Shown in pieces: positions 48,603 through 52,071 of a stretch of 64,000 nt of DNA (position 1 is the stretch's first letter; the number at the start of each line of letters is the position of its first letter). Under the pieces are notes generated by a model that was not told where the DNA came from, made no database searches, and was given only the letters and a program-made list of their open reading frames with translations. The DNA comes from Pelobacter seleniigenes DSM 18267 (GTDB lineage: Bacteria > Desulfobacterota > Desulfuromonadia > Desulfuromonadales > Geopsychrobacteraceae): NCBI RefSeq assembly GCF_000711225.1, contig NZ_JOMG01000002.1:756501-820500 (forward strand). Direction: 5' to 3'. The translations under genes were made by a program, and so were the position numbers.

Positions 48603-49712
48603 ATGACAAAGTCTATCACTTATGTTGGTTTCGATGTTCATAAAAACTCGATCGATGTCGCGTTAGCCGATGCTGGCCGCGAGAGTGAGATCCGCTATTA
48701 CGGCACCATTAACGGAGATCTTGCCTCACTGGACAAGGTGATCCGTAAACTGGTCTCACGGGGAACCAGACCCTCCTTTGTTTACGAGGCCGGACCCTGT
48801 GGCTATGAAATCTATCGGCATCTGACACAGCAAGGATACGATTGCAAGGTGGTTGCCCCATCGCTGATTCCGCGAAAAAGCGGCGACCGCATCAAGAATG
48901 ATCGCCGCGACGCTGAGATGCTGGCGCGGCTGCATCGTGCTGGAGAACTGACTCCGGTCTATGTCCCTTGTCTCGAAGATGAGGCGATGCGCGACTTGTG
49001 CAGAGCCCGCATCGACAGCAAAAGTGCTGAACGCAAAGCGCGCCAACAACTGGGGGCCTTTCTCCTGCGCAGCGGGTTCCGCTACAGCGGGAAAACACCC
49101 TGGAGCAAGGCTCACTGGAACTGGATCTCTTGCATCAAGATGCCGCATCCGGCCCAGCAGATCACCTTGCAGGAATATATTGATGCCGTACGTTCCTGCA
49201 CAGAACGAGTTGAACGCATGACTGAACAGATTCGCCAACTTGCCGAGCCGTGGCGCATGAATCCTGTCGTCGAGGCGATTCAGGCCCTGCGAGGCGTCTC
49301 CCTGATTGTTGCGACAACAACGGTTGCCGAATTGGGAGACCTGACCCGCTTTGATCATCCTCGACAGCTCATGGCGTACCTGGGGTTGGTTCCCTCGGAA
49401 CACTCCAGCGGCGAGACGGTCAAGCGTGGCGGGATCACCAAAACCGGGAACGGACATGCCCGGCGCATGCTGGTCGAAGCGGCTTGGTCGTATCGACTTC
49501 CGGCTCGGGTCAGTCGTCGGCTGCTTGAACGGCAGAGGCACCTACCGCAGGCTGTTTGGGAGATCGCCTGGAAAGCACAATTGAGGCTCTGCTCCCGCTA
49601 TCGACTGCTGACCGCCAAGGGGAAACGCAGTCAGGTGGTCATTGCGGCCATCGCCCGTGAGTTATCAGCATTTATCTGGGCCATCGCCCAAACGGTGCCA
49701 CGCCCGGCATAG
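48603..49712 (+). CDS. IS110-family DEDD transposase
   Basis: RNA-guided recombinase of 369 residues. The N-terminal RuvC-like DEDD domain starts YVGFDVHKNSIDVALAD and includes FVYEAGPCGYEIYRHL and KNDRRDAEMLARLHRAGEL (catalytic Asp residues). The C-terminal transposase_20 domain has ALRGVSLIVATTTVAELGDLTRFDHPRQLMAYLGLVPSE in segments, with the catalytic-Ser region SSGETVKRGGITKTGNGHARRMLVEAAW in segments. GGAG lies 8 nt before the ATG. The gene is intact, so the element may be active. Confidence 0.95.
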   Translation: MTKSITYVGFDVHKNSIDVALADAGRESEIRYYGTINGDLASLDKVIRKLVSRGTRPSFVYEAGPCGYEIYRHLTQQGYDCKVVAPSLIPRKSGDRIKNDRRDAEMLARLHRAGELTPVYVPCLEDEAMRDLCRARIDSKSAERKARQQLGAFLLRSGFRYSGKTPWSKAHWNWISCIKMPHPAQQITLQEYIDAVRSCTERVERMTEQIRQLAEPWRMNPVVEAIQALRGVSLIVATTTVAELGDLTRFDHPRQLMAYLGLVPSEHSSGETVKRGGITKTGNGHARRMLVEAAWSYRLPARVSRRLLERQRHLPQAVWEIAWKAQLRLCSRYRLLTAKGKRSQVVIAAIARELSAFIWAIAQTVPRPA

Positions 49713-50168: not shown

Positions 50169-51473
50169 TCAGGATTCCAGGTAAGCAGTGATCGTTTGGG
50201 CGATCGTTTTAAAAATTTGCGTAAAGACTTCTTCATCAGGCTCCAGCAAGGTAATTCTAAAGCCCCGTTCATCAGTACAGAAAGAGGACATCGGCACGAC
50301 GCAAATACCGGTTGATGCCAGCAGGTAATACACGAAACGCTTATCCGTCTGTGTGCCCGGCTTATCAACCAGGCGCTCGACCAATTGCCGCACCTGCTCG
50401 TTTTCAATCGGCAAAGTCTGGTGATTGTTCAGCCGGTCAGGCTCAAAAACCACGCTCATGTAAAAAGAGCCGTTGGTTCGGTTCACCTTCAGTCCCGGAA
50501 CTTCATGCAACAGATTATAAGCGATATTGGAACAGCGCTCATAGCGGTTCCGGCGCTGCTCAAGGTATTTTTCATATTCAGGATGAGCAAGAATAAGCGG
50601 AATTGCTTTTTGCGGCAAGGTGGTCGAACAGACCTCGACCATTTTCGAGTTGAGGATACTTTCGATATAGCGCTTAAAGACCTCATCCTTATCGGAATTG
50701 TAAACCTCGATCCAGCCGCAGCGGGCACCCGGCCAGGGAACTTCCTTGCTGATTCCTTTCATGGCGATGGCGGGCAGGTCGCCGACCAGATCGGAGATCG
50801 GCCTGGTCACTGTGCCGTTATAACAAAGGTTGTGATAGATTTCGTCACAGATCAAAAACAGATCATACTCTTTGCAGATGCTGATGATTTCTTTCAGAAT
50901 CCGTTCCGGATAGACCGCCCCGGTCGGGTTATCCGGATTGATGATCAGCACCCCGGATATGGCCGGGTTGTATTTGACCGACTGTCGTAAATCATCCATG
51001 TCAGGGTACCACAGATTGCTGGGATCAAGTCGGTAGGTCACCGGTCGCTGTCCGGCATGGGCGCCTTCTGCGGAAGAATGGGTGGAATAGGTCGGTGACG
51101 GACCGATCACCCTGGCCTCTCGCTTGAGCAGTCCGTAAACCTTTTGAATGGCATCACCGAGGCCGTTAAAGAAAATGATGTCCTCAGCGGTAATTTGCGC
51201 ATGGCCGCGCTTATTGGTCATATCGGCAAGGAACTGACGTGTTTCCAGCAACCCCTTGGTTGCACAATATCCGTAAGAACAGTCTTGCATCGCCAGTCCG
51301 GCAACGATTTCCTTGATCCAATCCGGAATATGTTCCCCTTTGGTGACCGGGTCACCAATATTTTCCATGTTGACCTGAATACCCAAGCGCTTGAGTTCTT
51401 CAGCAATACCGACAATGGCACGGATCTCGTAGGTCAACTCCCCGGCACCGATGTGAACAATATTATTACGCAT
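50169..51473 (-). CDS. PLP-dependent aminotransferase, class I/II
   Basis: A 434-residue aspartate/alanine-type aminotransferase. Motifs are NIGDPVTKGEHIPDWI, the PLP-phosphate region FFNGLGDAIQKVYGLL, GVLIINPDNPTGAVYPERIL, LICDEIYHNLCYNG, and the PLP lysine region AIAMKGISKEVPWPGARCGWIEVY (Lys in GISKEV). ATG 51473 follows GGGGAG. The upstream leader ORF rich in Ala codons, with terminator and antiterminator, suggests that it makes alanine or is controlled by alanine supply; an AlaA-like role is an inference. Confidence 0.9.
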   Translation of the reverse strand: MRNNIVHIGAGELTYEIRAIVGIAEELKRLGIQVNMENIGDPVTKGEHIPDWIKEIVAGLAMQDCSYGYCATKGLLETRQFLADMTNKRGHAQITAEDIIFFNGLGDAIQKVYGLLKREARVIGPSPTYSTHSSAEGAHAGQRPVTYRLDPSNLWYPDMDDLRQSVKYNPAISGVLIINPDNPTGAVYPERILKEIISICKEYDLFLICDEIYHNLCYNGTVTRPISDLVGDLPAIAMKGISKEVPWPGARCGWIEVYNSDKDEVFKRYIESILNSKMVEVCSTTLPQKAIPLILAHPEYEKYLEQRRNRYERCSNIAYNLLHEVPGLKVNRTNGSFYMSVVFEPDRLNNHQTLPIENEQVRQLVERLVDKPGTQTDKRFVYYLLASTGICVVPMSSFCTDERGFRITLLEPDEEVFTQIFKTIAQTITAYLES

Positions 51474-51506
51474 ACAATTTCTCCCCTGACAGCTCTTGGT
51501 CAATAG

Positions 51507-51542
51507 AAAAAGGCCATGGACTGATCTGTCCATGGCCTTTTT
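51507..51542 (-). terminator. Attenuator terminator before the aminotransferase
   Basis: AAAAAGGCCATGGAC and GTCCATGGCCTTTTT are perfect 15-nt arms around a 6-nt loop. On the minus strand the T-run ends 33 nt before the aminotransferase ATG; the stem begins 24 nt after the leader stop codon. Confidence 0.9.
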
Positions 51543-51611
51543 CAAGATTATGATAAACTTACGGCGTTACCCCAGCGGGCAATGGACAGTCTGTCGGCTT
51601 AATATTGCCGC
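51526..51611 (-). promoter_or_regulatory. Alanine attenuator alternative pairings
   Basis: Region 1 (51611-51604, GCGGCAAT, Ala-Ala-Ile codons) pairs with region 2 (51583-51575, ATTGCCCGC; one bulge). Region 2 (51589-51578, CTGTCCATTGCC) can instead pair with region 3, the left terminator arm (51537-51526, GGCCATGGACAG): 11 of 12 positions. Region 3 otherwise pairs with region 4 to terminate. This is the complete 1:2, 2:3, 3:4 arrangement of classical attenuation. Confidence 0.8.
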
Positions 51612-51650
51612 CAGGATCGCTCGTGCTGCCGCTGCTGCTGTACGTGTCAT
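51567..51650 (-). CDS. Alanine-rich leader peptide
   Basis: A 27-residue ORF, ATG 51650 to TAA 51567-51569, with GGAGAG 6 nt upstream. It begins MTRTAAAAARAILAAILSRQ and holds eight Ala, five of them consecutive (GCA GCA GCG GCA GCA), within codons 5-15. The coding pattern, strong ribosome site and downstream mutually exclusive structures all point to a regulatory leader. Ile and Leu codons in the control region leave open a wider signal. Confidence 0.85.
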   Translation of the reverse strand: MTRTAAAAARAILAAILSRQTVHCPLG

Positions 51651-51735
51651 CTGCCACTCTCCAAAAAAATGATTTTTGCCTGAGTATCACAGTGTGCTGG
51701 CCGTGTCAATGATTCTGTTTCACACGGCCCCGGAA

Positions 51736-52071
51736 TTATTTTGGACCGGGTGACGGAGCCACCAACACCACCCCGCCCGCATGACTTTCCTGCCCCCCTG
51801 ACAAGGAGACGATTTTGCCGCGGCCTTCCCGCTCCACCTCATCGATCCGATTAACCTGATGATAGGGGACCATAAATCGGTCCACCCCCTCAAATTCCTT
51901 TTTCAGACTCTCTTCGGCAGGATTATGCAGCAAACTGGAAGATTCCCCGAACAGCAACCCCTCGATCATCACAAAACCGTGCAGGTCGGCCTGTTCAACC
52001 TTGCGCGCGTAAAGTTCGTAGGCTTTCCCTTGACTGGTAAAAAAAATCCGGTAAATCGTTTTGTTACTCAT
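51736..52071 (-). CDS. DUF1820 family protein
   Basis: A 111-residue soluble protein of the DUF1820 family: IYRIFFTSQGKAYELYARKV, HGFVMIEGLLFGE, LLHNPAEESLKKEFEGVDR, MVPYHQVNRIDEVEREGRGKI in segments. The tail is Gly/Pro-rich. The family has no established function. It is a single gene between the attenuator promoter region and the AEC transporter. Confidence 0.85.
   Translation of the reverse strand: MSNKTIYRIFFTSQGKAYELYARKVEQADLHGFVMIEGLLFGESSSLLHNPAEESLKKEFEGVDRFMVPYHQVNRIDEVEREGRGKIVSLSGGQESHAGGVVLVAPSPGPK

Follow-up and report, generated by a model that had tools for sequence, protein, structure and literature searches.

A putative alanine-codon leader-peptide attenuator preceding an aminotransferase gene in Desulfuromonadia

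Transcription attenuation by translated leader peptides is well known for amino acids other than alanine, its classical examples being the trp, his, leu, ilv, thr and phe attenuators of Proteobacteria and the trp and leu attenuators of Actinobacteria. These systems combine a run of codons for the product amino acid with a terminator that shares an arm with an antiterminator, and the choice between the two structures is made during transcription. T-boxes, known for alaS and other genes in Firmicutes, also read the charging of a tRNA. For alanine, leader-peptide attenuation seems to be undescribed: no natural alanine-sensing attenuator was found in the literature searched, which is only weak evidence since most subscription journals were not covered, and the main texts of PMC2965389, PMC1262725 and PMC2659441, as far as these sources were accessible, contain no word beginning with "alanine". 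Ala codons are used in other ways in the portions consulted of PMC5039519, PMC13410324 and PMC8384417. One of these sources, available in part, presents an engineered trpL leader in which Ala codons control attenuation; this construct is man-made, contains two Ala codons and reports inhibitors rather than alanine (PMC5039519).

The DNA analysed here, referred to as the window, is a stretch of 64,000 nucleotides from Pelobacter seleniigenes DSM 18267. An aminotransferase gene on its minus strand is preceded by an element with the following parts, given in window coordinates:

51683-51709, minus strand: promoter TTGACA (51709-51704), 15 bp, GATACT (51688-51683), 32 nt before the leader ATG
51659-51662, minus strand: ribosome-binding site GGAG of the leader ORF
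51567-51650, minus strand: leader peptide ORF of 27 codons; sensor codons Ala 5-9, 11, 14 and 15 (51638-51606)
51618-51623, minus strand: CGA GCG of the Arg-Ala motif
51604-51611, minus strand: segment 1 (Ala-Ala-Ile codons), pairing with segment 2 in the predicted default fold
51578-51589, minus strand: segment 2, the 5' half of the antiterminator, within the leader ORF and ending 8 nt before the stop codon
51526-51537, minus strand: segment 3, the partner of segment 2, overlapping the left terminator arm
51506-51543, minus strand: intrinsic terminator hairpin of 16 bp (51543-51528 paired with 51521-51506), loop AGAUCA
50169-51473, minus strand: PLP-dependent aminotransferase gene, NF005334 (PRK06855), 434 residues, presumed to be the regulated gene

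The leader ORF (51650-51567) encodes MTRTAAAAARAILAAILSRQTVHCPLG followed by the stop codon, and its 8 Ala within 12 residues are reached by none of 100 dinucleotide shuffles. This 27-codon frame, with eight Ala codons in codons 5-15 and its ribosome site, had been pointed out in a preliminary description of the locus and is present as described. The terminator reported there before the aminotransferase gene is likewise found, with a stem one pair longer than the 15 bp given (predicted energy -27.4 kcal/mol); its U-run, UUUUUC, lies inside the stem as folded. The complementarity between the leader end (51589-51578) and the left terminator arm (51537-51526) is confirmed at 11 of 12 positions, with 51581:51534 as the only mismatch, and a pairing of 51609-51604 with 51583-51578 is present in the predicted fold of the window leader. 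The 208-nt leader region is more stable than its shuffles (z -2.99; 3 of 200 equally good). A simple terminator and promoter scan of the window returned neither the leader's terminator nor any promoter on the minus strand; the likely reasons are that part of the T-run falls within the stem and that the promoter spacing of 15 is outside the range of 16-18 that the scan allows. Downstream of the aminotransferase gene lies an IS110-family transposase gene (48603-49712, plus strand).

The element meets the criteria of a classical attenuator as to its short ORF with start, ribosome-binding site and richness in one amino acid, and as to the intrinsic terminator between this ORF and the gene. It differs from the classical attenuators in its Ala codons, in the NF005334 aminotransferase gene that it precedes and in the lack of a generally conserved 1:2 hairpin. 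An Rfam scan of 51400-51800 gave only sub-threshold matches (nine up to E 1), with no T-box model among them; a T-box would likewise read tRNA charging, and the Ala element would rely instead on the translation of its leader. Thr_leader (RF00506) matched on the same strand with 30.3 bits, below its gathering score of 55, and the Ala element has no run of Thr/Ile codons.

The preliminary description had called for a comparison of the regions upstream of orthologous genes and would have been refuted if neither the Ala-rich ORF nor the alternative pairings were conserved in relatives. The comparison points the other way, since relatives across the order retain the Ala-rich ORF and both the terminator and the antiterminator pairings covary. 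By an automatic rule, an Ala-rich leader ORF with a terminator precedes the same aminotransferase in 100 of 111 distinct upstream regions of the order. Three of the 11 negatives look positive by eye (L214 and L215, lost to the left-arm word filter, and L054, lost seemingly to the loop limit); the remaining eight all belong to family f7, seven of them to genus g23 and one to g24, and genus g25 of the same family has the element. The rest of the class, as sampled, gave 7 positives out of 9. Elsewhere in the phylum 394 genomes were searched, 71 had the gene and 68 were examined, and the element was found in eight: six among 66 distinct regions, plus two genomes whose regions are those of the named loci L068 and L087, which alone were positive out of 16 named loci that are more distant. 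A poor Ala count or hairpin led to the omission by hand of six loci from outside the class (L075, L082, L168, L257, L278 and L280), and loci with a missing gene start (L069, L072 and L080) or with fewer than 100 bases upstream were excluded.

These counts extend a first survey limited to 300 bases before the gene, which found a short ORF with at least six Ala within 12 residues in 56 of 84 distinct upstream regions; when each of these 56 counts was compared with 100 dinucleotide shuffles, it was reached by none in 53 loci and by one in three loci. Several apparent negatives of that survey have their leader further upstream, and with up to 700 bases considered and a terminator required, 115 loci out of 202 distinct regions were positive, corresponding to 113 loci with distinct leaders, from which 92 representatives were aligned. 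The Ala cluster is kept among relatives; the remainder of the peptide and its length vary and differ between families. The exact terminator pattern occurs in 56 of the 136 genomes of the order, never in more than one place per genome, and the reversed pattern in none. A promoter scan found a site in 30 of the 113 leader loci, 27 of them of the type "TTGAC." with GATANT at a spacing of 15-16, and none in 104 control windows taken further upstream; in the other 83 loci it gave no site. Moreover, leader and aminotransferase stay together while the neighbouring genes change: of 73 named loci only 16 have a pyruvate:ferredoxin oxidoreductase (PFOR) gene upstream on the same strand, and loci lacking this gene keep the leader. 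As separate observations, three loci without the attenuator (L035, L036 and L042, with near versions in L189-L191 and L197) carry upstream of the aminotransferase a palindrome like ATACTGTATACAG, perhaps an operator, and locus L073, on a contig titled as a Chloroflexi metagenome-assembled genome, is identical over the 200 bases upstream of the gene to L104 (genome G033, of the window's own family), which may be a binning error.

The pairings were examined on the 92 representatives. For the terminator stem, 97.2% of the cells are paired, two-sided changes occur at 10 of 12 pairs, and all five covariation measures exceed those of the shuffles (0/500). The antiterminator, which shares the left terminator arm, met its criterion with three of the five measures above all 500 shuffles: 79.2% of its cells are paired, against 28-42% when slid by 1 to 3 columns (0/500), 44 cells show two-sided changes against a shuffled mean of 15.9 (0/500), and the covariation score is 0.258 against 0.209 (0/500). 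The other two measures, the number of pairs with two-sided change (102/500) and that of further pair types (226/500), did not stand above the shuffles; a slide by -3 gives 8 against 6 two-sided pairs and 19 against 15 types, with 37 against 44 two-sided cells and only 30.8% of all cells paired. Both arms have changed together between families, for example from the GGCCATGG form to the GCCGTAGG or GGCCGCGG forms. Because 80 of the 92 sequences leave one antiterminator pair unmatched, the antiterminator should be weaker than the terminator. Tested locus by locus, the 2:3 duplex reached p<=0.05 in only 57 of 113 loci and p<=0.01 in 23, with a mean z of -1.9.

The pairing of segments 1 and 2 fares differently. 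Tested as a duplex against synonymous-codon shuffles, the Ala region and segment 2 gave no signal (mean z -0.05; 6 of 113 loci in each tail), and folding of the whole leader gave a weak one (mean z -0.45; 17 of 113 at p<=0.05 and 3 at >=0.95), six of the seven strongest loci being from family f17. Synonymous-codon choice therefore favours the 1:2 pairing not at all or only weakly, and the switch rests on 2:3 against 3:4. The full 1:2/2:3/3:4 switch initially proposed is thus retained for its last two pairings, which covary; the 1:2 pairing exists in the window and is not generally conserved.

On this basis the element is very probably a leader-peptide transcription attenuator of the classical type, sensing charged Ala-tRNA and controlling an aminotransferase which probably makes alanine from pyruvate, a reading for which no expression, term-seq or reporter data exist. 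Transcription would start, by inference, some 25 nt upstream of the leader ORF. With ample Ala-tRNA, a ribosome translating the leader would pass the Ala codons, reach the stop codon and cover most of segment 2, as the usual ribosome footprint implies for a ribosome in that position; the 3:4 terminator would then form before the gene and end transcription. With scarce Ala-tRNA, the ribosome is expected to stall at the Ala codons, short of segment 2, which would pair with segment 3 ahead of the synthesis of arm 4, allowing transcription to continue into the gene. Lack of alanine would thus probably turn the aminotransferase gene on, the response to alanine itself being inferred. The geometry was measured in the 97 of 113 loci that have the Ala cluster ahead of segment 2 and a distance of 10-36 nt from the start of segment 2 to the stop codon's end: the median distance from the last Ala codon of the cluster to the start of segment 2 is 10 nt, and from there to the stop codon's end 24 nt. 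A ribosome on most of the Ala codons is inferred to leave segment 2 free; on the last one it would leave it only partly so, because the median spacing is only 10 nt. When the part of the RNA that a stalled ribosome does not cover is folded without arm 4, the antiterminator forms; when all arms are included the terminator wins in every state, even with segment 2 free, and antitermination must therefore be kinetic, the choice being made during transcription.

A further feature of the leaders is a pair of Arg and Ala codons preceding further Ala codons, found in 88 of the 113 leaders and absent in 25. Its Arg codon is CGA in 81 of the 88, and the Ala codon that follows is never GCC in any of them. 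CGA makes up about 9% of the Arg codons in the window, counted in open frames of at least 300 codons that were not gene-called. No constant pairing partner for the conserved CGAGC was seen in the minimum-energy folds of the leaders. That CGA is a slow codon timing the ribosome is a guess.

The identity of the enzyme bears on what the switch would serve. The aminotransferase matches NF005334 with 745.5 bits (cut-off 443), a model that names no substrate. The description of the enzyme as AlaA-like holds as far as sequence relationship is concerned, its closest solved relative being the glutamate-pyruvate aminotransferase AlaA (4CVQ, which we take to be from E. coli; E 7e-48); its substrate is inferred and has not been shown. 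The next solved relatives are a putative transaminase (1XI9, presumably from Pyrococcus; 4e-43) and then tyrosine aminotransferases (5e-25). One aminotransferase frame among the relatives (G002:C194:21093-22391) contains a single TAG stop. Alanine dehydrogenase is present in 102 of the 136 genomes of the order, the window's own included, and no Ala leader precedes it in the three of three cases checked; alanine supply therefore need not depend on the aminotransferase. It remains conceivable, if rather unlikely, that attenuation by Ala-tRNA is real and the enzyme does not form alanine, alanine being a proxy for pyruvate or nitrogen status: the absence of a named substrate, the kinship with tyrosine aminotransferases and the frequency of alanine dehydrogenase would fit this, while the closeness to AlaA and the PFOR genes upstream in some of the loci speak for an alanine-forming enzyme.

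Departing further from alanine sensing, the leader might respond to something else, such as a general slowing of translation, a drug, or its own nascent peptide acting as an arrest peptide. The near-invariant CGA codon within the cluster is not explained by Ala sensing, a preference for Ala has been reported for the ribosome stalling caused by chloramphenicol and linezolid (PMC13410324), and the trpL leader whose two Trp codons were replaced by Ala serves as a reporter of translation inhibitors (PMC5039519). Against this, an Ala cluster as dense as that of the first survey is hardly ever reached by shuffles, the gene behind it is an aminotransferase and not a resistance gene, and in similar cores elsewhere the codons are aromatic, Leu or Trp ones and match the genes that follow. 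Arrest peptides moreover require a conserved peptide at the stall site, and this criterion is not met: outside the Ala cluster both sequence and length vary, and C-terminal residues are shared only within families, over the antiterminator bases. We therefore consider a sensor of this sort improbable. Still less credible, to the point of being practically negligible, is that the hairpin merely terminates the upstream gene and that the leader ORF is due to chance. In the window a DUF1820 gene on the same strand does end 85 bp before the leader; however, the element follows the aminotransferase and not its changing neighbours, the leader has a promoter and ribosome-binding site of its own, and the antiterminator covaries. 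The attenuator interpretation of the preliminary description is accordingly supported, as far as sequence analysis can support it.

The same core appears before other genes of Desulfobacterota. A covariance model of the Ala element has matches in 213 of the 394 genomes of the phylum at E<=0.001. Among the matches before the aminotransferase (n=15), 14 have an Ala ORF with at least six Ala in 12 residues, and L293 (the same as L027) has five. Thirty-five matches not before the aminotransferase were inspected (15 from the first set and 20 picked down the list); 29 have a leader ORF with a codon cluster, aromatic in 15, Leu in 12 and Trp in two, reached by no more than 2% of 100 shuffles, and six have no such cluster, an Ala cluster being found in none of the 35. 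Family models were applied to the downstream genes of 20 of these 35. Behind Leu leaders stand leuA (3), 2-oxoacid oxidoreductase gamma (3), FabK and one gene without family match; behind aromatic leaders, DAHP synthase (5), ADH synthase (2), IorA, an iron-type alcohol dehydrogenase and shikimate kinase (below cut-off); trpE stands behind one Trp leader and behind one leader without a significant cluster. A covariance search favours look-alikes, but it did not select for agreement between codons and genes. The antiterminator and terminator sequences of these leaders are closely similar to those of the Ala element, unlike their sensor codons and genes; L300, L306, L312, L317, L321 and L328 are examples of non-Ala leader loci with such a terminator core. 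As to the window's own genome, no second copy of the core was found among 10 matches up to E 5, a single full-length match lying below E 0.001, accompanied by a partial opposite-strand match to the same hairpin (0.0014). A site at 0.009, considered as a possible second copy, has no sensor-rich ORF and was taken for an ordinary terminator.

Ala may thus be one setting of a shared attenuator core. Whether there is one homologous core in Desulfobacterota, formed by the antiterminator and a GGCCRTGGGC-type terminator, with sensor codons (Ala, Leu, aromatic, Trp) exchanged operon by operon, and with an undescribed Ala version that is kept through most of Desulfuromonadia and carries an additional conserved CGA codon, we judge to be evenly poised. 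Convergence on such cores is possible, because PMC1262725 reports that GGCC triples are conserved in the trp attenuators of actinobacteria and describes long-range conservation for proteobacteria. If the reading as an alanine attenuator is true, natural leader-peptide attenuation would extend to alanine as one more sensed amino acid, and a widespread aminotransferase family without assigned substrate would gain a testable function, the formation of alanine. Furthermore, attenuators that share a core and differ in their sensor codons would constitute a natural series on how such switches change their specificity.
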